NCBI RefSeq assembly: GCF_028583425.1 | Contig: NC_072806.1 | Location: 32,224,001 to 32,288,000, forward strand | Direction: 5' to 3' | Origin: Eublepharis macularius | Taxonomy: Eukaryota > Chordata > Lepidosauria > Squamata > Eublepharidae | Length of the DNA stretch: 64,000 nucleotides | Shown: piece by piece, positions 4,640-62,954 of the stretch | Layout: the number at the start of each line of letters is the position of its first letter | Numbering within the stretch: the first letter of the stretch is position 1 | The notes under the pieces: generated by a model | What the model saw: the letters and a program-made list of their open reading frames with translations, nothing else | What the model was told of the DNA's origin: nothing | Databases searched by the model: none | Made by a program: the position numbers and the translations under genes

Positions 4640-6790
4640 TTAGTTTATTTTATTTATTTTATTTTATTTATATCATATTTGTATTCCGCCTTCCCCGCGA
4701 GCAGGCTTAGGGCGGATAACAACATTAAGAACGTTTAAAACATTTCATATTAAAACATTTAAAAACATCATACAAAAATACCATACAAAAATAGCAGCAC
4801 TCTTTTTCCTGATAGCAGAAATACAATTAATAACAAATAATACAACAGTACAACTGAATATAGCAGCAGCTTAAGGACAGAGGTGGGCAGCTTTCACAGG
4901 GAGGGGGGTAGATGTTGTATCCTCCAGCCAGTGGAGGCCTGGCCTCAGCCATAAGCCTGGCAGAACAACTCTGTCTTACAGGCCCGGCAGAAAGATGATA
5001 GATCCTGCCGGGCCCTGGTCTCGGTAGACAGAGCGTTCCACCAGGTAGGTGCCAGGACTGAGAAAGCCCTGGCTCTAGTCAAGGCCAGGCGGGCCTCCTT
5101 GGAGCCAGGAACTGCTAACAATTGCTTTCCTCCCGATCGGAGGGTCCTCTGGGGAATATATGGGGAGAGAGGGTCCTTCAGGTACGCTGGCCCCAGTCTG
5201 CACAGGGCCTTATAGGTCAGTACCAAGACCAAGTTAAATCTAAACAAAGAAAAAGAAGGTGATGAGTGATCTTAAAGGGGACAGATCTATGGGGCCACCA
5301 CCAAGAAGGCCCTAGCTTCATTTCCACTTGCTTAAATTCAGAAGATGGAGGCACCCAGAGAGGGGCCTCTGCATACCATCGTAATGGAAGGACAGTTTTG
5401 TACAGGAGTAAGCAGTCCTTCAGCTACTATAGACCCAGATTGTGTAGGACTTTAAAGGTCAAAACCAACACTTTGCTGTGTCTCCAGAAATAAACCAGTA
5501 ACTATGCAGCCCTTTTAACACAAGGATGATGATGTCACTATGGCATGCTCCATCAGTGCTCTTGACACAGTATTTTGGACCAGCTGTAGTTTTCAAGAGA
5601 TATCAAAAGGCAACTGCACGTCGAGCACGTTACAGTAATCAGAGCATGGGCAACTGTAGCCAGCTCACGGTTTGTCAAAGAGGGTGCAGCTGGCCTGCCT
5701 GCCAAATTTAGAAAGAAGTACTTCAAGCCACAGATGTCAGCTGGTTATGACATAAGACAATATCCAGAAGCAACCCAAGCTTTGAGCCTCCTGCTTTAAA
5801 GGGGAGTGTCACCTGGTTCCAGAATTGTTGATAGATCATCATCATGGTTTGAACCCCTGACTGACAGCATTTCTGTCTTGTCTGGATTAATCTTCAGTTT
5901 ATTCACTCTCATCCAGCCCATCTTGTTCCACCTAAAGCTGTTCAGCACACCCATTCCTCTGTCTGACTCAGATAAAAGGAGGAATAAATAGAACTGGGTG
6001 TAATTAGTATGCTAATGATGTCTTGCTCTAGAGTCTGAGGGCCAAACTACAAGTGACGAATCACACAGGTTGGACACTTGTCAGCTTCCCTCAAGTTTTG
6101 ATGGGAAATGTAGGCAGCTTGGTGGAATGTTGGACAAGTGACAGTTGAAAAGTCCATTGGACAGCAGTCAGAGAGCCAAGCTGCAAGACCAGGATTCCTA
6201 CATTTCCCATCAAAACTTGAGGGAAGCTGACAAGTGTCCAACCTGTGTCATTCGTCACTTGTAGCTTGGCCCTCAGACAACTTTATCCAACGGTGTATGT
6301 TTTAAAACACGAGGAAAACCTGTCGCTCAACAGAGTCCCATAACTCAACTAGTAGGGTACAGAGCTATGGTCTCTTGAGGACTACGTGAAACCTGACTTC
6401 AAAGTAAGAGTGTCCTTAGCTTTCAAAAACTGACAGGCAGTCCAAAAGGATATTATGGTCAATATTATCAAAAGCTGATGATGGATCCAAGAGAAACAAC
6501 AGAGTGTAGCAATTCCGTTTTTCTCTCCTAGTATAGATTGTCCATTAGAACTATCCGAGGGGGTTCAATGTTGAATCAGGGCCCGAAGCCCACCTGAAAT
6601 GGGTTTATTTTCAGTCAAAGATACCTGGAGTTTCACCACCACCATTTTCTCTTGCGCACCTGGCCAAGGTGCCACATAGCAGGCACAACTTAAGAGATCC
6701 AGAGAGAGTTTGTTTCCCCCCAGAAATGGTCTCATAACCACTTCCTTCAAATAATTAGGGCCACATTCTCAAGAAATTTTCAGCCTTCTG
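4640..6790 (-). mobile_element. Long L2-type LINE, antisense, with nested MITE
   Basis: The 3' end lies at 4640-4740 ('ttgtattccgccttccccgc', A-rich on the minus strand). Minus-strand 4945-5247 encodes 'VLTYKALCRLGPAYLKDPLS' and 'RAFSVLAPTWWNALS', a signature of the C-terminal region of L2-clade ORFs. Upstream, 5266-6030 and 6279-6790 continue with text typical of this LINE family, such as 'tctgtcttgtctggattaat' and 'gcccacctgaaatgggttta'. The MITE at 6033-6278 interrupts it. The frames are decayed. Confidence 0.65.
6033..6278. mobile_element. MITE with about 78-bp terminal inverted repeats
   Basis: The left end 'gtctgagggccaa...' and right end '...ttggccctcagac' are reverse complements, and similarity continues inward for about 78 bp with few mismatches, leaving a short central spacer. 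There is no coding capacity. It splits the antisense L2-type LINE. A convincing target-site duplication was not found, so the superfamily (hAT-like by appearance) is uncertain. Confidence 0.75.
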
Positions 6791-30450: not shown

Positions 30451-31490
30451 CATGTACATATGGGCACAGAAAGGGAAGATTTGTAGATTGAGGGATCACT
30501 TAACTGCTTTAAACAGCATAAAATGCATAATTTATAGCATAGCATTGTACTATCTGGCATATTTATGAGTCAAGTGGAAAAGCTACAGTCTGGGTTGGCT
30601 CCAAAGGGTGTGATTTAATTTATTTGTCCCCCCCCCCTAAATTATAGTTTGTCAGGACCGGGGGGGGGGTACTACATTTTGGAGTTTTTGTAAGTTGCTT
30701 TGGGTTCCTTGTTATGGAAAAAAGCAAAGTGAAATTACCTAAATGAATATATTTATGGAATGTATATATATATGTGTGTGTGCGCACCTTAGCTTTCTAT
30801 GTCCAAAACTGTGAATATATCCAGTATTTGAGATAGACCTGCAAACTGCTTGTTCCCTGTGCTACTTAGAACATATATCTCAGCGTTTACCATCTCAAAG
30901 GCAGAGACTAGAAACCTGATGTATGACATTGAGCCAGCCACACACTCTTAGCTAAACCTACCTCAACAGTAAAATTGTTGTGAGGATAAAATGGGGGAGA
31001 GGAGCCAACTTGGGAGTCGGTGAGGGGAGAAAGGTGGGGTATAGGGATGTGCGTTTCGGCATTCAGAATGCCGAAAGAATGCCGAAACAAAAGTGTTTCG
31101 GCTTCTTTCGGGGAATGCCGAAACGTTTTGGGGAATGCCGAAACGTTTCGGGTAGCCGAAAGAAAAAAGCCGAAACGTTTCGGGATTCTTTCGGCTTTCT
31201 TTCGGCTTTTCAATGGGAAAATGCCTCCGTCTTCCCGGACGTCTGGGGGAGGCATTTTCCCACCGAATAAGCCCAAAATTGGTGGGGACCTTCCTCTAAC
31301 CCTTCTCTAACAACCACCCAAGTTTCAGACAGATTGGACTTTGGGAGGCCATGTTATGGCCCCCCAAAGCAGGTCCCCCCATCCTCCCATAAGAAAGCGA
31401 AGGAGCAGCATATTGTTAGCATGCTGCTACTCATCTTCTTCATTATTTCCTATGGGGAAAAAATGAAGAAGCAGGCTTCCTTTGCCAGGG

Positions 31491-31965
31491 GTGGCATTTT
31501 GCATGCAAAATGCCCCCTCACCCTCAGGGGCCCTTCTCCCACCCCTCCTCCCACCCCCCACCAAGGCTCAGCCTGCTCCCACTTGGGGGGGGCATTTCAT
31601 GGCCTCCCCAAGTAGGTGCTCTAATCTCTACCACTGACAGCTGGGGGAGGCTTGTGTTGCCAGGGGTGGCATTTTGCATGCAAAATGCCCCCCAACCCTC
31701 TGGGGCCCTTCTCCCACCCCTCCTCCCACCCCCCACCAAGGCTCAGCCTGCTCCCACTTGGGGGGGCCATTTCATGGCCTCCCCAAGTAGGTGCTCTAAT
31801 CTCTACCACTGACAGCTGGGGGAGGCTTGTCTTGCCAGGGGTGGCATTTTGCATGCAAAATGCCCCCCAACCCTCTGGGGCCCTTCTCCCACCCCTCCTC
31901 CCACCCCCCACCAAGGCTCAGCCTGCTCCCACTTGGGGGGCCATTTCATGGCCTCCCCAAGTAGG
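31491..31965. repeat. Three 175-bp direct repeats, left arm
   Basis: Each unit carries the 18-bp palindrome cattttgcatgcaaaatg, at 31495, 31670 and 31845, exactly 175 bp apart. The remainder of each unit is C-rich and closely alike between units. Confidence 0.92.
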
Positions 31966-32504
31966 TCCTGTCAGCCCCTAAAGTCCACCCCTTACAGCCC
32001 CACACAAACCCAATTCCCCCCCAGCTGCCACACACAGACCCAAATCCCCACATTAGCCCCTCACAGACCCAAATCCACCCCCACCTGCCCCACACCCATA
32101 ACCCCAGGAACAGGCTGGCAAAGGCCAGCCCTCTCCCTTTGTTCCCTATGCTGGGAACTTCTAAACTCTCTTTCCCTGGGCAATTCTGCACAGCCCAGGG
32201 GTGCCACAAATGTGGGCACAGCAGGGGGGCGCACCAAAGGGCATGATAGAAGTGTACTACACAAAATAATACAACCCACTTCACCGTTTTTGACAGCAGT
32301 TGTGTTTGTGTGATTCTCTGATGTGAAGTGAGTTGTGTTATTTTTATGTAGTACACTGCTTTCATGCCCTGTTGTGCCTTCCTACTGTGTAACCTAAAGC
32401 AGTTAAGGAAATAAAGTGCTTTTGACAGCAATATTTTGGGGTGATTCTCTGATGTTAAGTGAGTTGTGTTATTTTTGTGTAAGATACTGCTGCCATGCCC
32501 TTTG

Positions 32505-32930
32505 GTGGGGGGTGGGAGGAGGGGTGGGAGAAGGGCCCCTGAGGGCTGGGGGGCATTTTGCATGCAAAATGCCACCCCTGGCAAGACAAGCCTCCCCCAG
32601 CTGTCAGTGGTAGAGAAAAGAGCACCTACTTGGGGAGGCCATGAAATGCCCCCCCCAAGTGGGAGCAGTCTGAGCCTTGGTGGGGGGTGGAAGGAAGGGT
32701 GGGAGAAGGGCCCCAGAGGGTTGGGGGGCATTTTGCATGCAAAATGCCACCCCTGGCAAGACAAGCCTCCCCCAGCTGTCAGTGGTAGAGATTAGAGCAC
32801 CTACTTGGGGAGGCCATGAAATGGCCCCCCCAAGTGGGAGCAGGCTGAGCCTTGGTGGGGGGTGGGAGGAGGGGTGGGAGAAGGGCTCCTGAGGGTAAGG
32901 GGGAATTTTGCATGCAAAATGCCACCCCTG
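32505..32930. repeat. Three 175-bp repeats, right arm, inverted
   Basis: The same unit occurs in reverse orientation, with the 18-bp palindrome at 32554, 32729 and 32904 (the last with one changed base). Spacing is again exactly 175 bp. Confidence 0.92.
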
Positions 32931-35026
32931 GCAAAGGAAGCCTGCCTCTTCATTTTTTCCCCATAGGAAATAATGAAGAAAGATTAGCAGCAGCATGCTA
33001 ACAATATGCTGCTCCTTCGCTTTCTTATGGGAGGATGGGGGGACCTGCTTTGGGGGGCCATAACATGGCCTCCCAAAGTCCAATCTGTCTGAAACTTGGG
33101 TGGTTGTTAGAGAAGGGTTAGAGGAAGGTCCCCACCAATTTTGGGCTTATTCGGTGGGAAAATGCCTCCTCCAGGCGTCCTGGAAGACGGAGGCATTTTC
33201 CCATAGAAAAAAGCCGAAAGAATGCCGAAAGAATCCCGAAAGCCGAAAGAGATTCTTGTTTCGGCTTTCAGCTTTAACAATAGAGAATCTTCTTTCGGCT
33301 TTCTACTTTCGGCTATAGCTGAAAATTTTTGGCTTGCACACCCCTAGTGGGGTATAAATGAAATAAATAAATAAGATAAAGTATTACAGTTTTATATGCC
33401 GACCAAGTTATAAATGACGTATCTTATGTTGCTAAAATAGTAAAATAAGTTTCAAGTTGATAAAGGGAGTAGATGTTACAGCAATTTACCCCACATGTCC
33501 CTTTTTTCCCCAGGGGGCAAAACCAAGAGGGGGGGCCCTCAGGGATTTCTGAAAATGTTACATCTCTCACTGCACCAAACCTACTTCCGAATTAAGGGCC
33601 ATCCTAATCCTCCCAGTTCATAGCTGGCAGTTTTCATTGACCCTGTCTCAACTGCTCTTTTATGCTATCTCTGTTCTGATCTTCATTTTCTGAAATATAC
33701 TTCCTGGATTCTTGCTGCACCTCTTATATTGTTTCAGGAAGAGTATCCTCTGCATATCCTTTTTTTTTTACTTTAAAGGCACAGATGTTTCTCCTTTCTG
33801 TTGCTATGGCGGGTTGGGACGGTGTAAGAGACAGTTTGCATGGGAGGGGATGAAGTGAGCTACTTCAGTGCCCTTTCTGTGCCTCCCTCCCAGTCCAACC
33901 TCAGGGTGGAGGGTAAGATTCCCCCCCCCCTTCACTGCAATACTGTTTCCAAGTGCGGTGCCATTGGGGGAAATGGGTGCCTTTAACTTGTATGGGAGAC
34001 AACAAAGAGGATGACCTTGTGGGTCCAGAGCTACTCTAGTTCCTGTTTGCATCATCACCTCTCCAGTTTTGTTTTATAATACAGGTAGATGCCTGCAACT
34101 TTTCCTGGCTGTTTGTAGCTAGAGATTTCCTTCTGTCACAGTTCTTTGCTTGTCTTACTTTGACCTTTCAGAGCACTTTGTTCCCACAGCCCTCTTTTCT
34201 CTAGAGAGCACACTGGACACTTATCTGATTTCCACATGTGTTTACCAGCGTTTAATACATGAAAAGATTTGGGGGCCTCTTAAAAATCCTTACATTAGGT
34301 TTTCAGGAGTATGCCAGATGAACACAGCATGTGAGTAAGAAAGGAATATTTTGGGTAAGTTTCCTGTGTCCAGGGATCTCCAGCGGGTGTAGATTTTTTG
34401 GATGGGAGACTGGAAAAGGATGAATGCTTGTTTAGCCCTGTTCTCAACTGCAGAAAGTTAGACACAATAAATTAACTGTCTAGCATAGCTTTTGAAGCTG
34501 CAGAGTTACATACATTTTAACAGAAGTATTGTATGTCTGAGACATGAGAGTAAATAATACTGACACTTCCCTTTGCTGCCATCTAGACTGCATATCAAGT
34601 GGTTATAAGTTGGCATCGATCCACCTTGCAGAGCAGCTTTGCACAGGGCTTATTTTGCTCTTTTCTTTTTTCTTTTCTTTTGGTTGTATATCTTGCTACA
34701 GTAACTGGTAACTGGCAAAGGGTTTGTGACGCTTCTGGCTCTCTGACAGTATTTAAGAGAAGAGAAAAACTTTTCACTGACATTGACTACTACTTCTGCA
34801 TAATATAATGGTTCGTAGTACTGAGGCTAGATGATACTGCAAATAGTATTTACATATCTGGCCAGTTCTGATAGTGGCATGTGAATTTTATTAGGGTATA
34901 TTGAAAAAAAAATTCTGTGGAAAGTTTAGCTGTACTAAAATGAAGGTTGGTACACTATTTTAATAGTATTTTTTTACCTTTGTCCAAATACACCTTGTAC
35001 AATACATGATGTAGGTAAAGTTATTC

Positions 35027-41885: not shown

Positions 41886-42687
41886 TATGTACACAAGTAT
41901 AGTCTCTGCCAAGAGTCAGCCTTACAATGTTCTGGCTCATGTTTGTGTCCTGTAAGCTCTCTCCACATACGAGGGCCAGTTCCCAAGAGACTGTTGTTAG
42001 ATCCAGAGGCAGGGAACAGGCGGCATTGCAGCTTGGCTGCCGGCTGCCCGGTGCCTTCTGCAACAAGGTAAAATCCTCAACAGAAAGGGAAACTTGTCTC
42101 CACAGGATTGGGGTCTATAGTGGTGCTGCTTTCAGGAAGAGCCTGAAGCTCTTCTGTGTAGGATTGATGGGGAGAATTGATGTGCCTTGTTGGCTCTGTG
42201 AAGAAATGCATTTTATTTCAAGGCTTGCACTCTGCAGAAACCCCACACTTGATTTTAGATATTTTTCTCTGTGAGCAGAAGACAGGCAGGAGGGGGGGAT
42301 GTCCGTCTCCGCAGGTATCACCAGTCCTACCAATGCTCTACTGAATATCAGGCCATCAAAGCTTTGCTTATGACCAGAGACACAACTTGACTGGAATCTG
42401 ATACCCAGAAGGTGACAGAGACTTGGAATGCAGGAGGCTAAATAGGATCTTTCCTGGTGACTGCAGGAAGAAATGATTTGACCCATGAGGGATGAGAGCA
42501 GAAAGAAGAGACAGAATCTCGGCATGAAGGGAGAGGGTCAGTTTTGGTTAAATCTTTTTGTAGGAAGGAGTTCTCATGCCTGAGCTCTGTCTTGATGGCT
42601 GCCATGCCACATGGAGCAGACAAGGGACTGTCTGCCTGGACAAAGGCTCTAAGGCATGTGTAGATTTGTGGAACAGAGAATTGCATG

Positions 42688-42973
42688 GTTGTTGTGGGTT
42701 TTCCGGGCTGTATTGCCGTGGTCTTGGCATTGTAGTTCCTGACGTTTCGCCAGCAGCTGTGGCTGGCATCTTCAGAGGTGTAGCACCAAAAGACAGAGAT
42801 CTCTCAGTGACACTGTGACACTGAGAGATCTCTGTCTTTTGGTGCTACACCTCTGAAGATGCCAGCCACAGCTGCTGGCGAAACGTCAGGAACTACAATG
42901 CCAAGACCACGGCAATACAGCCCGGAAAACCCACAACAACCATCGTTCTCCGGCCGTGAAAGCCTTCGACAAT
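42688..42973. mobile_element. Young palindromic foldback (Penelope-type), copy 1
   Basis: Arms 42688-42809 and 42819-42940 (122 bp each) are reverse complements with no mismatch seen, around a 9-bp loop. The right side has an extra 33 bp ending 'agccttcgacaat'. Flanks carry a perfect 15-bp duplication, acagagaattgcatg, at 42673-42687 and 42974-42988. Each arm contains CTGAAGA, GCCAGC/GCTGGC, GAAA and CGTC in hammerhead order. The structure is almost the reverse complement of the copy at 48369-48660. Confidence 0.92.
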
Positions 42974-43738
42974 ACAGAGAATTGCATGTTTGCACCCTTT
43001 CTTTGTGCTACTTGGTCAGTCCATTGCTGTGCACAGTATGTGTGTGGACTTTTCCCCTTTAATAAATTCTTCACTATTTTAAATACTCATAGTTGCTCCC
43101 CATACCACTTAGACTGCCACCGTTTGAACACACATTTCAAAATGGATGGCAGGGGAATGGAAGCACTTGGTTCCTGGATCACTAATTCTCTGGGAGTGTG
43201 CAGATGTGGTAAGCTGTCCCTGTGGTAACCTGTCACTGGGTAGCAGGAGATGCAGGTACTAGGCAAAGCATTTTATCAGCAGCGTGGAAAGGAAGCTGGG
43301 AGTACTCGGTCCTCTTGGTGGGTAATTCCAAAACTGACCAGCTGGGGCAGTTTTCTGAAAGAGAAGTGTCAGGGGACGACCCCCCCACACACACACACAC
43401 AAGTTGAGAGAGCTAGGAGAGTGTTTTGTCACTGAGTGGAGAATTCTAATAACCGCTGCTGCCTAGGTGCCATGGAAAACTGAATAGGAGAGGGCCTGTG
43501 AGTTACTAGGGCTGTTCTGCCACAGGCTCTTTGGCTGTACCAGTTTCAGATAGCATGTATCACAAATCTTTGTGTTGTCCTCCAAAATGACTCGTGTTTG
43601 TGAGACTGTCCTTTCCCAGAGTACATGCTATCGCAGCTGGTAGATTGAAACCAGCCTGATTCTGAATGAAAGCTGTTCAAGTTGCAGAACTCAGCACAGT
43701 TGTATTTCTGCTGATATTCTTTTCTTCTCCTTTTAAAG

Positions 43739-48275: not shown

Positions 48276-48368
48276 GTAAGTGGCTTTTTTTTGCTTCTCT
48301 ACCTGGACCAATGACACTGGCATTGCAGTCTTGAAACAAGGGTTTCTCAAAGCTCTCCAGAGTCGATG

Positions 48369-48660
48369 TATTGTCGAAGGCTTTCACGGCCGGAGAACGA
48401 TGGTTGTTGGGGGTTTTCCGGGCTGTATTGCCGTGGTCTTGGCATTGTAGTTCCTGACGTTTCGCCAGCAGCTGTGGCTGGCATCTTCAGAGGTGTAGCA
48501 CCAAAAGACAGAGATCTCTCAGTGTCACAGTGTCACTGAGAGATCTCTGTCTTTTGGTGCTACACCTCTGAAGATGCCAGCCACAGCTGCTGGCGAAACG
48601 TCAGGAACTACAATGCCAAGACCACGGCAATACAGCCCGGAAAACCCCCAACAACCATCA
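48369..48660. mobile_element. Young palindromic foldback (Penelope-type), copy 2
   Basis: Arms 48399-48524 and 48534-48659 (126 bp) are reverse complements with no mismatch seen, around a 9-bp loop. The left side has an extra 30 bp starting 'tattgtcgaaggctttcac'. Flanks carry a perfect 16-bp duplication, ctctccagagtcgatg, at 48353-48368 and 48661-48676. The hammerhead-like core is at 48568-48602 on the + strand and again in the other arm on the minus strand. Confidence 0.92.
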
Positions 48661-51067
48661 CTCTCCAGAGTCGATGGCTGCTGCCGTATTGACTTTTTTC
48701 TCTGCTTCAGGTGCCAAACCTCCGTGCTTTTTTTTTTTTTTTGCATCCACATGAAATACTAGTCTGTTCATGCTCCGTTCATCCTTTATCTGTCTTCAGC
48801 ATGCTCTTTCTCCCACCTCTTTGCCAACAGCGCAGTCCAAATGTGTTCTCAAGCAGTCTGGATGGGAATCTGCCCATTCTCCAAGGACCTGCCCACATCA
48901 GCGCTATTTTCCTTCTCTTTGCCCCTTGCAGCCACCCTGTTCCCAGCCACTAGAGGGCTTTTTTCGGGCTTTTAAAATAATGGGATATTTTTGTATCAGT
49001 ATATATCTGTAACAGGGTAACAATCAGTTGGCACCATTTATTAGCTTCTCTGAACTCCCAGTTTTCCTTTTTTTAAAAATGTGAACTTCTAGCAGTTTTT
49101 CCTACCAGTGATATAAGGGGAAAGAGGCGTGATATAAATATACAGGCTATCTTAACACTCAGGAATGCCCTGATCTCAGGAAAGACCTTTTTTCTGGGAG
49201 ACGAAGCAATAAACTCCGATTTCAGGCTACGAGGAAATGAGCTTCTTTTATGGAAACAAGTGGGCAGGATGGAGGTTGCCCCCCTTCCGGGAAGGGGCAA
49301 GATAGACGGCTATTTGGATATACTGAGTTGGGCTGGAAAGGCTGTGGGGGACTTGCACCTTGATAACTAACTGGATAGAAGATGCACAGCAATACACGTG
49401 GGGCCCACTCCAGCTTTCATGACAGGTTAAGCTGAAGCCATCCTTGCTGGAACAGGAAGGGGTAAAATGTCTGGACGTTTTGGCAGAAGAACACAAGCCA
49501 GAGACTGGGGAACAAGGGCGGCAGTGGAGTGAAGTCTGTGTGGATGAGCCTCTGTTCTCAGAGTTCCCGCATGTCTGCGTCTATTACACGGAAGGGCTGC
49601 GAGTCCAACGTAGTCCCTTGATTGATTTCTTTTTTTACAGAACTAAGAAAAGAAATCAAACAAGACAATGAACTAGATTGTACATCACGGGTGCCAGTCA
49701 CCTTGGCATCCTGTAGTGTTTTGATATAATTTTCCAGTGCTTTGGGCTCTAGTGCATTGAGATTGTATCATAGTACGTAACGATATCAGGCTGTGGTCAG
49801 AGATCTCACCGAAGGCCCCTGACTGCTCATCCATGCAACAGATCCGAAATTCATGATTGGGCAACTGACAGCTGGCTAGGGAGGAGGAAAGGAGAGAAGC
49901 AGGGCACACAAGCACATAGCTCCTGTCTGTGTTTCAAGGTGCAGGTAGTGAAAGAGAGGGCATCGCTTGAGTGATGATGGCTAACCAAAGAAAAGTAAGA
50001 GCCGGGGAGGCAATTGGAGCAAACCCTCATTCACATATGCAGCTTCCCCACTGCCTCTCAGGCAAAGGCAGTGGGAAGGAAGAGGGGTCCTTTTACAAGC
50101 TGTACCTCCTATATCTCTGCAACAAAAAGGTCTTGTTTGAAAATAAAAGCTGAAAGTTCAGAGAAACTAACTCTTGCCAGGTTATAACAGCAATGTTATG
50201 GCAGTCTAACAATTATGGTCTTTTTTTAAAGCCCCCCAAATAGGCCTCCCGTGGTATGGGGGTAAATGGTGGCCACAGGGTGCTGCTGAGATAAGGACAG
50301 TGCCTGGAAAACCGCTGTGTAGATGTTTTGTTGCAACAGTGAAGGCTATGTGGAGAATCCTTGCCGTATAGACCCGAGCTATCAGTGCTTGGAAGATTCT
50401 CCAGGGAAGCTGAATAAGGTTTGCTTTCCAGGGAATGATTGGCTTAGCATAATCCACTTGTAAATATATAACACGCTTCAGTGCTTTCGATTCTGGAAGT
50501 AGGGAGAATAATGTAATTATTTTAGGCCTCAGACTCCTCAGTGTTTTATCAGTTAACTTTAGTACCTGCCCAGTTCTGAAATGAAATGGAGCATAAAAAC
50601 TATATCTCAAATAAGCGGAAGATTTTTGCAAGCAGAACTGTTTATCTTATCCCTGAAATAATTTTTCATTATCCTGGCTCATGGAATTGTTATTCAAAAG
50701 GAGGCGGGATTTTTTTAGCCTGTGTATAAGCAGGCACATCTTAATGTACTTGTAAAGGAGATAGGGGAGGAGGTAGGGCGGGCACTTAACCGGGGGTAAT
50801 TTTATTGTCCTAACCAAAGCTACAGAGTAACAAAGAAGAGAAAAGCTGTAATTTTCAAGTTAATAACACTTCTGGCAATAAAACACTGACAGCAGTTCAG
50901 TAATAACACAGTAGCCATTTGCTTGTGACAGTCCAAAGGAGATATTATGTTGCATTGGAAATCTTTTGTGTCCAATTCAGTTTGTCACAAAAAGTGTTCC
51001 TTGCCCTGGTGAAACCCATCTCGAGTGGGGGAAGGTATGTGTATGCCCCAGAAGAGATGTATAAGAG

Positions 51068-58247: not shown

Positions 58248-58440
58248 TGGGGTGTGGCTCAGTGGCAGAGCATCTCTTTTTCACGCAGAAGGCTCCAGGT
58301 TCGATCGCTGGCCTCTCCAGTTAAAAAGTCTTTCGGTAACAGGAGATGGGAAAGACCTCTACCAGAGACCTTGGAGAGCTGCTGCCAGTCTGAGTAGACA
58401 GTACTGACCTTGTTGGACTGATGGTCTTATTCCTGTGCGA
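58248..58440 (+). mobile_element. tRNA-headed SINE, younger copy
   Basis: The head has box A 'tggctcagtgg' and box B 'ggttcgatcg', followed by the family body 'caggagatgggaaagacctc' and 'gagagctgctgccagtctga'. A decayed relative is at 16715-16925. It is not a functional tRNA gene, because the cloverleaf is not continued. Confidence 0.75.
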
Positions 58441-58673
58441 GAGGGGTAGGGGCTCGGCCTTTTTTACGCTTCTGACTATTTTAAAATCTGTTCAGAAAGG
58501 GAATGAAGCTGTCAGACAGACAATCAGTGCTGTATGCTGTCTGAAATAGGGTGGCGGTTTTTGACAGACACGTGGAGATCAGCCAAGCAATGCTGTGAAA
58601 ATCAGGACAGGTGCCCCCACCCCACCCCCAAGCCTAGCCCAGGTGAGAGGGCTGTTTACGTATCTGAATGTTG

Positions 58674-59245
58674 CCAAACAAGGACCTAACAGTCTACAGA
58701 AACCTGATAGAAAATAACAATAATGCAATTTTAATGGAAGTGCCAATGCAATGAGTGCAAAAAGGGCAAGGTAAGTAAGTACTTGCCATTGAAGGGCGAA
58801 GAGGGTCCAGTGGTGTTTGGAGGAGATGAGGCAACAGGAATGGCCTGACAAAGCAACACACAGCGAAACGGGCTGTCTTAATTGCTAGCGCGCCCGTTGC
58901 CAACAGCCCGGGAGCTTCCTTACCGACCTTCTGACTCCCGTTGGACCCTCTTTGCCCTTCATTGGCAGGTTTGCCTGCAAGAAAGAAGAAAAAACCCATT
59001 GGAACTGTACACCTTGAAAGACGAACTTTGTATTTATATGCATGTTGTTATACATGTGTTCTTTGGACCGTATTCCATGCATTGGGGCTACATGTGTGCA
59101 GACGGATAGTCCCTAGTATTTTTGGAGTATATATATTGGAATACTTACCTTGCACTTTTTGCACTCATTGCATTGGCACTTCCATGAAAATTGCATTATT
59201 GTTATTTTCTATCAGGTTTCTGTAGACCGTTAAGTCCTCGTTGGG
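58674..59245. repeat. Composite inverted repeat downstream of GDPD1
   Basis: Outer arms 58674-58775 and 59142-59245 are inverted copies of about 100 bp ('ctacagaaacctgatagaaa' and 'tttctatcaggtttctgtag'). A second pair, 58784-58809 and 58942-58967, nests inside. Near 58845 lies 'ctgacaaagcaacacacagc' then 'gaaacggg', resembling the loop text of the foldback at 62386-62896. Arms show several mismatches. Confidence 0.75.
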
Positions 59246-60979
59246 CAGTATTTTGTTTGAAACCTGTCCCTACTTGTTTGTGATACGTATCCGAGTGGCC
59301 AGGAGTGGGCTTCTGTAGCAAGTGAGGGTCTAGTGTACGTTTGCCTTTCTCCTTGTGACATAGACTGGACAAGCCTGTACCAATCAGAATTTCTTAATCT
59401 ACCTCATGTGGCTGTTGTCAAGGTAACAGGAGGAAATTAAAACACTGTATGCTCCACTATGATCTCATTTTAGGAAGTGCAGGATGCAGATTTGATTACT
59501 AAGACTTAAAAATGCAAGGATCTACTTTAGGAAGTGTAGGAAGTGTAGCACGCTGAAGTGTGCTTCTGTATATCTTACAAGTTTTCATGAAGGATTACTA
59601 GGGAGGATGCAGCTGTCTTCCGATTAGAAGGCCAAAAAAAAGTGTGCCTTCTTGGAAAAGACCTATGTTGAATTCCAGCCGTCCTGATTGAAATTAACTT
59701 GCTTGACAGAGAGCACTGCCTGGAGTAAAATAACACACGCTCTTGTCGGTCATGCTCACCTCTGGTCTGGTGTCATGACACAAACAGACTGCACTCCTCT
59801 GCAACATAGGTCTTGGCAAAAGTAATTCTTTTTCCAAGCAATATTCAAATCTTAGTAGTTCTTCCTGTATTTAAGACTTTTCTTTTCACCTGTATAACTG
59901 CACTATGAGCAGATGCCTAAGAAAGAAGTTTGGATTTCTTTTAATAATAGGTATTCTTGATGGAAGTTGCTTGAGACCCTGGCTTCTTCCTTTGCAGTCC
60001 CCCTGCTTCCCCCCTCCACCCTACGCACCCTGTTTTTAAATGATTGTTAGTCCCTGGGAGCAGGCATCAAGTTTTCCACTTTTCATGAAGTCTTGTTTAA
60101 GTTACACAGCCAATCTCTTGGTATTTGAACTGTCCTTGGATTCAACTCCACATCTCAACAGGTTTACTGAGTGTAGGGAGCCTGCAATCTCATTTTAGCA
60201 AAGCCATGTGTGTAAAATGTTAAATAGCAGCATGAATTCAAAAGGAGGCTCGTTCTCATGAAGGTGGGTTTGGTTTCATAGTTTTTTAACAGCACAAAAT
60301 GCCGCTGATTTCTAAGTCGGATACCAGTAGCTCTGCGGTTGCCTTCTGTACTTCGTCACAGTCGAGGCAAATTGTGTTCAATGGGAATTCAGCTCTTTTT
60401 CTGACTAAGATGGTAGAATACCCTTGAGCTACTCGATCAGTTCCAGCACAAGTAAAAAAATAATTGGTTTGAACCAGCCCTGCTAATAAGCTCCCCAGCC
60501 TGAATGGAATAAATCAACTGACTTCATGCGTTTGGGGAGAATGAATAAGATTGCGTCCTTTGTTCTAGATTTGTAGCTCCCAATTATAAATCCCCTTAAG
60601 TGAAGTCGTGCCCCAAATCTCACCGACAATGTGCGGTGTGTATTGATTTGGCGGTCGTATTTATGTTCGGCTCCTATAACTGCACAAATGTGGGCTGGAC
60701 TATCGCTCATGGGACCCCAGAGTACTGAGCTTCCATTTCTGAGAGCAAGCCAAGGGAAAATGGTGGTTTTGGTTCCAATCTCTTATCTTGAAGGCTGTGA
60801 AGCTGGAAAATAGTTAAAAGGCGGGGCAGTGCCTGGGTATCTGATTTCCATTGATCCAGCAGTTGGGAGCTCTGCATGCTTTTCCCCCTTCCCTTTGCTT
60901 AGTAAAAGCAGAATAAAGCAGGCATAGGCTAATTTTTATTAATGGTTTGGGTCCCCCCCCTTGATGTTTTTACAATAAA

Positions 60980-62385: not shown

Positions 62386-62896
62386 AAATCCAAGAGGGGG
62401 TGGTCCCAAACAAAATGGAATGAAGATGAAGAACAGGACCACGTACAAAGAAGTTTAATGTTCTTGCTATCGAAACTCAAATATAAGGCACTCAATTGTA
62501 AGGCACAGTAAGCCAATGTCAACCGAGGAGTTGTGAAGAATTCCCAAACTCCCAGCTGGAGGTGGCAACGGGTTTGCCGGCTTGGAAATTAGGACCCGTT
62601 TAGACCCCATGTAGTAAAATCATTCGGGAACAGAAGCTTCTAAGAGAAGAGTAGCAGTAGCAGACCATAATTGATTTATATGTGGCTTATGACAAAGCAC
62701 ATTGTGCGAAACGGGTCCTAATTTCCAAGCCGGCAAACCCGTTGCCACCTCCAGCTGGGAGTTTGGGAATTCTTCACAACTCCTCGGTTGACATTGGCTT
62801 ACTGTGCCTTACAATTGAGTGCCTTATATTTGAGTTTCGATAGCAAGAACATTAAACTTCTTTGTACGTGGTCCTGTTCTTCATCTTCATTCCATT
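62386..62896. mobile_element. Young foldback with 190-bp identical arms
   Basis: Arms 62412-62601 and 62709-62898 are reverse complements over 190 bp with no mismatch seen, around a 107-bp loop. The left side has an extra ~26 bp. A perfect 16-bp duplication, ttgcctatgaagcagc, flanks it at 62370-62385 and 62897-62912, its first bases overlapping the right arm. The loop contains 'tgacaaagcacattgtgc' then 'gaaacgggtc', a variant of the hammerhead-like layout. Penelope type is inferred from that and from the duplication length. Confidence 0.85.
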
Positions 62897-62954
62897 TTGC
62901 CTATGAAGCAGCCTGGGCAATTGTCCAAGGCCCCAACAGCCAGTGTGAATGAAT

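Follow-up and report, generated by a model that had tools for sequence, protein, structure and literature searches.

The window and its two palindromes

The window, that is, the whole stretch of DNA that was analysed, comprises 64,000 nucleotides of contig NC_072806.1 from the gecko Eublepharis macularius. An SMG8-like gene lies at its start, where the coding stretch 595-1647 matches Pfam Smg8_Smg9 with an E value of 1.7e-108. In the segment 24680-25673, an integrase zinc-binding domain is accompanied by a match to an integrase core that is weak and below cut-off; judging by these domains, the segment is the remains of an LTR-type retroelement. At 58248-58319, a 33-bit Rfam tRNA match that ARAGORN does not call may represent a tRNA-derived SINE. 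Inverted repeats occur in several places. The structure at 31207-33210 is large, with arms 95-97% complementary and 175-bp tandem repeats in both halves (31482-31966 and 32502-32934). Another at 62411-62899 has 191-nt arms that are 100% complementary, with 107 nt between them, and others are found at 6033-6278 (91-nt arms, 95%) and 58667-59252 (111-nt arms, 93%).

The palindrome studied here, copy A, occupies 42688-42973 and is near-perfect, with about 32 nt of extra length on one arm. Its arms (42685-42813 and 42815-42943) are 129 nt each, complementary at 128 of 129 positions and separated by a spacer of 1 nt, a description equivalent to a 9-nt loop with perfect arms outside the loop. It is flanked by a 15-bp target-site duplication (TSD), ACAGAGAATTGCATG, at 42673-42687 and 42974-42988. 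A sequence-only reading of this DNA had described a palindromic foldback with one longer arm and a perfect 15-bp duplication, and the arm complementarity and the TSD on both sides confirm it. The core CTGAAGA-T-GCCAGC ... GCTGGC-GAAA-CGTC is present once per strand.

A second palindrome, copy B, absent from that reading, lies at 48369-48660, 5.7 kb from copy A and in the opposite orientation. It has its own 16-bp TSD, separate from that of copy A, and is identical to copy A at 284 of 286 positions. The two differing positions are palindromic partners, which suggests a single template for both arms of one copy; the difference is synonymous in the element's reading frame (codon 25, CCA/CCC). By their sequence, both copies are head-to-head pairs of the leader repeat (pLTR) of a Penelope/Poseidon-type element, the clade within the Penelope-like elements (PLEs) being assigned from the alignment with PAc only. 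PAc is a Penelope-like (Poseidon) element of Anolis carolinensis whose template RNA is printed in PMC11167929. The features of both copies are as follows, with x positions counted along the pLTR and positions preceded by a plus sign along the ORF.

42673..42687, no strand: left TSD of copy A, 15 bp (from the sequence)
42688..42809, minus strand (sense on minus): tail-less pLTR arm of copy A, outer end at ORF ~+82 to +85
42741..42775, minus strand: hammerhead-like core in the tail-less arm of copy A (from the sequence)
42810..42976, plus strand: tailed pLTR arm of copy A, x1 to x167, the last 3 bases common to the TSD
42853..42887, plus strand: hammerhead-like core in the tailed arm of copy A (from the sequence and the PAc alignment)
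42859..42976, plus strand: first 39 codons of the PLE ORF, copy A
42944..42976, plus strand: tail of copy A, ORF ~+86 to +118 (from the PAc alignment)
42974..42988, no strand: right TSD of copy A (from the sequence)
48353..48368, no strand: TSD of copy B, 16 bp
48369..48533, minus strand: tailed pLTR arm of copy B
48534..48660, plus strand: tail-less pLTR arm of copy B, final base not templated by the element
48661..48676, no strand: other TSD of copy B

Affiliation, abundance and the hammerhead core

On the sense strand of the tailed arm, CTGAAG-ATG is followed by the open frame MPATAAGETSGTTMPRPRQYSPENPQQPSFSGRESLRQY. The unit and the PAc template RNA can be aligned across the hammerhead, the start codon, the AC-rich stretch and the tail, and the motifs CGAAACGTC at +21 and CTTCGACAA at +106 are common to both. 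In a longer copy in the gecko genome, L098, the pLTR is preceded by an ORF that encodes a reverse transcriptase domain (RVT_1, E 2e-9), in keeping with the telomerase-like reverse transcriptase of PLEs. This ORF stops shortly before the pLTR, which is followed by the next ORF start, and the order corresponds to the tandem pLTRs of PLEs. A GIY-YIG-like stretch is legible by eye in the same ORF, and Pfam (E <= 0.01) gave RVT_1 only. The tail of about 32 nt and the target duplications of variable length (10-16 bp) also agree with PLEs, for which an optional tail of 30-40 bp and short, variable duplications are characteristic. The Penelope-like nature proposed from the sequence is thus borne out by the PAc alignment and by RVT_1 in the L098 ORF. 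Between the stop of the upstream ORF and x1, a TATA-like box was seen by eye; together with clustering, it makes x1 the probable 5' end of the RNA.

Elsewhere in the host genome, at least 78 matches to the GIY-YIG endonuclease family PF01541 are listed. The unit is present in only one of the 20 loci L052-L071 (L065, ~0.9 kb from the endonuclease match), so those 20 would belong mostly to other PLE families. Outside the host, viral contigs gave 0 matches to the unit and the phages and plasmids searched gave none, while five matches in bacterial genomes, on actinobacterial and other contigs, are taken as chance. A search of literature text for the sequence words of the unit returned 0.

The host genome was searched over 2.24 Gb in 19 large and 53 small contigs (72 in total). 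Exact counts reached 32,119 for a core 25-mer, 18,602 for a leader 49-mer and 13,773 for a tail 25-mer, and 0 for each of the three read backward as controls. A pattern for palindromes joined near x1 was found at 2,874 places, against 278 for its control, from which about 2,600 such palindromes are estimated, some of the listed places being unrelated or double-counted. Two samples were studied in more depth. The first consists of the best 40 of 1523 genome-wide candidates, picked by likeness to copy A and hence most similar to the query; all 40 scored matches are full palindromes. The second was selected by the exact tail and nothing else: the first 14 Mb of one chromosome contain 79 tail sites, and removal of duplicates (17 dropped) left 62 loci, 39 of which show an adjacent inverted arm. 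The palindrome is a common scar of a Penelope-type element in the gecko genome. The earlier description of an unusual retroelement form is not supported, as inverted pLTRs with a one-sided tail have been described for PLEs (PMC3846280) and thousands are found here.

The conserved hammerhead core, CUGANGA ... GAA with short helices, is present with one additional U, as in PAc. This base beyond the canonical form is the T of the ATG start codon of the element, and the PAc template RNA has the same additional base at the same core position. What had been taken as a departure from the canonical core is therefore nothing peculiar to this element. Among the 40 best matches, the exact core is found in both arms in 27, in one arm in 10 and in neither in 3. 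Simulation of 100 first-order Markov windows produced a looser form of the core in 9. The motif by itself thus counts for little, and it is the match to the PAc hammerhead that bears the weight; through that match, the proposed short-stem hammerhead sequence is upheld. The covariance-model search suggested with the sequence-only reading was negative, Rfam giving no hammerhead match (E up to 10; gathering cut-off) in a run without a positive control on a PLE hammerhead.

In the predicted fold of the monomer, helix II is present and helix I hardly forms (pair probability 0.014-0.021). For the palindromic transcript the predicted structure is a single hairpin (about -265 to -270 kcal/mol) in which helix II has a probability of 0. 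Each strand holds one sense and one antisense copy, and since the transcript would fold as one long hairpin, the two ribozyme-like folds formerly envisaged for each inverted dimer are unlikely. For PAc, hammerhead cleavage is reported only with protein added, is dispensable for insertion in vitro, and the template is given as unprocessed RNA (PMC11167929). According to the methods of that study, a PLE hammerhead had self-cleaved in Mg2+ in earlier work.

Ends, centres and a proposed route of insertion

The tail ends at ORF +114 to +118 in all of the 40 best matches of 1523, and reverse transcription of PAc starts at 111-118 (PMC11167929), where the far end of the copy A tail also falls. The tail-less arm has its outer end at x132-138 in 30 of the 39 inverted pairs; the remaining nine end at 142, 167, 120, 112 and 47, with four inside the element. 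In these four the left arm ends upstream of the pLTR, which speaks against the explanation preferred below. The two outer ends are fixed places about 32 nt apart, one per arm, and match the known reverse-transcription starts.

A repeat of at least 10 bp with the tail-side flank is present at 42 of the 62 tail-chosen loci and, with the flank reversed, at none of the 62. Over both samples, exact TSDs of 10-16 bp, mostly 12-13, were found at 73 of 102 loci, and the duplications of 13-16 bp anticipated as a recurrent class are thereby borne out. Across the 102 loci, both primer strands have a similar preference in their last bases, which are A/T-rich with T and then T or G. The palindromic shape and the target duplications would both be expected of a DNA transposon or MITE whose inverted ends are long, but the TSD length is not fixed (10-16 bp), the ends fall inside the PLE ORF and the arm lengths vary through 5' truncation, which leaves such an origin scarcely credible. 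Long palindromes are a known type of artefact, and assembly or amplification might on that account be suspected. Yet TSDs surround many separate insertions on different chromosomes, and with the reversed-flank control at 0 of 62 this suspicion deserves next to no weight.

The single tail was also assessed in a sample blind to it, in which head-to-head pairs were taken by eye from core 25-mer matches, giving 17 among the first 100 places. Ten of these have the exact tail on one arm and the other arm ending at x132-138. Five more, without the exact tail, each show one slightly altered tail and one tail-less arm. In every one of the 15 checked pairs, which represent 13 distinct insertions, there is thus exactly one tail. 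The two pairs outside the 15 (1377547/1377719 and 8536618/8536753) have the spacing of L142 and L146 and are probably duplicates. A single tail is likewise seen in both window copies and in the chance-met L065 and L116, and the genome-wide core:tail ratio of 2.33 agrees with one tail per pair. Exceptions are L140, with a tail on both arms, and L096 and its duplicate L097, which have a complex structure. About 7 of the 62 loci look one-sided (L092, L100, L106, L107, L116, L129, L137), and of these L106 has no more than a 9-bp repeat. Both the exceptions and the one-sided loci count against the explanation preferred below. That the two start sites are chosen independently was considered and rejected, because one tail in 13 of 13 insertions would arise with a chance of at most 0.5^13 at any tail rate.

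The centres are varied, 27 being distinct among the 34 readable in the best 40 of 1523. A palindromic master copy, transcribed and retrotransposed whole as a foldback family of its own, would explain why copies A and B have the same centre, as do L017 and L024. This idea is strained by the variety of centres, by symmetric truncations at x40, x60 and x89-91, and by the fact that the sole two differences between copies A and B are palindromic partners; it is very improbable. The 31 junctions comprise 11 with an overlap of 1-9 nt, 2 without either overlap or filler (blunt) and 18 with filler of 1-51 nt, in part copied from the nearby arm as judged by eye. In sequence, the centre junctions resemble end joining. 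Some centres contain an extra G, a candidate for a cap-derived base.

Arm ends were analysed in 31 of the 39 pairs, those with an outer end at x130-142. The inner ends of the two arms lie within 3 nt of each other in 14 of the 31, against a shuffled mean of 2.63 with 0 of 10,000 shuffles as high, and such coincidence argues for a template common to both arms. In nine pairs the tail-less arm extends more than 8 nt beyond the tailed one (up to ~1 kb), and in four it is the tailed arm that reaches further by more than 8 nt. The nine cases imply that the tail-less arm cannot always be a copy of the tailed arm. In L101 and L118 the tail-less arm extends far beyond x1 in the upstream direction (by ~1.05 kb and ~0.11 kb), which places the beginning of some templates upstream of the presumed start site.

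Hammerhead-cleaved RNA was also considered as the template and rejected. Among the 62 arm ends of the 31 pairs, 0 fall at x77-81 around the predicted cut, which in the tailed arm of copy A lies after 42887 (x78, ORF +29). This agrees with the report of unprocessed RNA as the PAc template. The hammerhead sequence travels along, and the insertions bear no sign of its cleavage product as template. Symmetric arm ends recur at x88-96, which accounts for 10 of the 62 ends and lies 10-18 nt past the predicted cut in the downstream direction. They occur at the centres of L086, L088, L099, L108 and L134 and may reflect a pause or a preferred join.

Sequence variants were compared between partner arms. 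Two variants segregate at position x124, which has the same base in both arms of 67 of 70 copies (A/A 59, C/C 8, mixed 3; 32 of the 39 tail-sample pairs included). Rare variants common to partner arms number 6 against a shuffled mean of 0.68 in one sample and 6 against 1.45 in the other, with maxima of 4 in 500 shuffles for both (16 of the 39 tail-sample pairs included). Mean arm divergence within and between copies is 0.0121 and 0.0145 in one sample and 0.0123 and 0.0177 in the other, and in 16 of 40 no arm is closer than the own partner; these values tell against the explanation preferred below. The difference is small because most variants are confined to one arm (52 of 58 and 21 of 27), and these would be later than the insertion or unrelated to it.

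Both palindromes are best read, with a probability of roughly three in four, as new PLE insertions in which two target-primed cDNAs stopped near the 5' end of the RNA and were joined head to head. The element protein would make a staggered cut of 10-16 bp, and the exposed 3' end of each strand would prime a cDNA inside the ORF start. One cDNA would begin at the end of the tail (~+115 to +118), the second (~+83 to +89) about 32 nt upstream of it. Both would be copied toward the 5' end from a single RNA, or from two RNAs with a common source locus, and their 3' ends would then be joined head to head through short overlaps or filler, leaving a palindrome with a tail on one side. The PLE identity, the fixed outer ends, the private TSDs and the varied centres can be read from the copies themselves; simultaneous priming of both strands, a single RNA template and end joining at the centre would be the events behind them. 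In vitro, the PAc protein cleaved and extended both strands, and two adjacent start sites bound the tail (PMC11167929). It is the combination of these two findings with the genomic record that leads to the bilateral model. The start site in vitro is reported as no different between strands (PMC11167929), whereas in the gecko genome there is one site per arm, and this counts against the model.

The one tail per pair, the correlated arm ends and the variants common to both arms are likewise legible in the sequences, and the strong arm-end correlation is equally predicted by fold-back copying. A single cDNA whose 3' end folds back and copies itself would also yield a head-to-head palindrome, with arm ends within 3 nt as in 14 of 31 pairs and with common variants. 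A short fold-back with a loop of 9 nt is one way to read the centre of copy A, and self-priming, there on an antisense template, has been proposed for the inverted pLTRs of Adineta (PMC3846280, 2013). However, where the tail-less arm is more than 8 nt longer (9 of 31 pairs) it is no copy of the tailed arm. A copied arm should moreover continue into the tail and the target, but 30 of 39 pairs have this outer end at x132-138. Several centres are too tight for a loop (1 nt in L043-L045), and filler is present at 18 of 31 junctions. Self-priming is on these grounds considered unlikely.

For the preferred route of two target-primed cDNAs, a further step can be envisaged. PLE integration may be bilateral by design, a proposition for which the chances appear about even: a protein dimer on one RNA would use one site and one strand per subunit, with the sites about 32 nt apart, and the joining of the two cDNAs would complete the insertion. 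If so, the genome would bear its signature in the one-tail rule, and the integration route would be unlike both the one-strand TPRT of LINE-type elements and the action of LTR integrases.

Comparison with known systems

The closest system is PAc, which has in common with the gecko unit the hammerhead, start codon, AC-rich stretch, tail, additional core base and tail end at 111-118 (PMC11167929). It belongs to another species, and its leader is divergent. The available text of PMC11167929, an in vitro study of 2024, does not tie both-strand priming to inverted pLTRs or to a single tail per insertion, and it leaves PLE second-strand synthesis and repair as steps for validation. Penelope elements of Adineta vaga have a 31-bp tail on one inverted pLTR, junction palindromes and a short TSD, and in Pen2a_Av and other Penelope elements of this species the inverted pLTR on the 5' side is shorter by 37 bp (PMC3846280). 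The gecko palindromes resemble them in the inverted pLTRs, the one-sided tail, the junction palindromes and the short TSD. In Adineta, by contrast, the inverted pLTRs are described mainly around an ORF, in the available text of PMC3846280, and are explained by self-priming. The inverted-pLTR structure was therefore known already, and what is new is the mechanistic reading only, which is put forward with reserve. No paper combining both-strand priming with inverted pLTRs was found in a literature coverage that is incomplete.

Metazoan retrozymes (PMC7229834) are like the gecko unit in having a type I hammerhead and short non-coding units. They form direct tandem repeats, whereas the gecko units are head-to-head pairs that include the start of a PLE ORF. 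A retrozyme was accordingly considered and rejected for the window copies, as the tandem-repeat scan of the window gave no direct tandem repeats here and the units stand head to head.

In LINE-1 twin priming, the second target strand primes on the same RNA, and an inversion with little overlap results. The route proposed for the gecko is similar in that the second target strand would prime on the same RNA. It differs in that both primers would lie at fixed sites within 40 nt, so that the arms overlap fully instead of little. Thousands of short insertions in the gecko genome record the reaction in their outer ends, single tail, centre and duplications, and they point to two cDNAs from two fixed sites, a proposal that is testable with the purified Anolis protein. 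The bilateral model would account for the long-puzzling inverted structure of Penelope elements.
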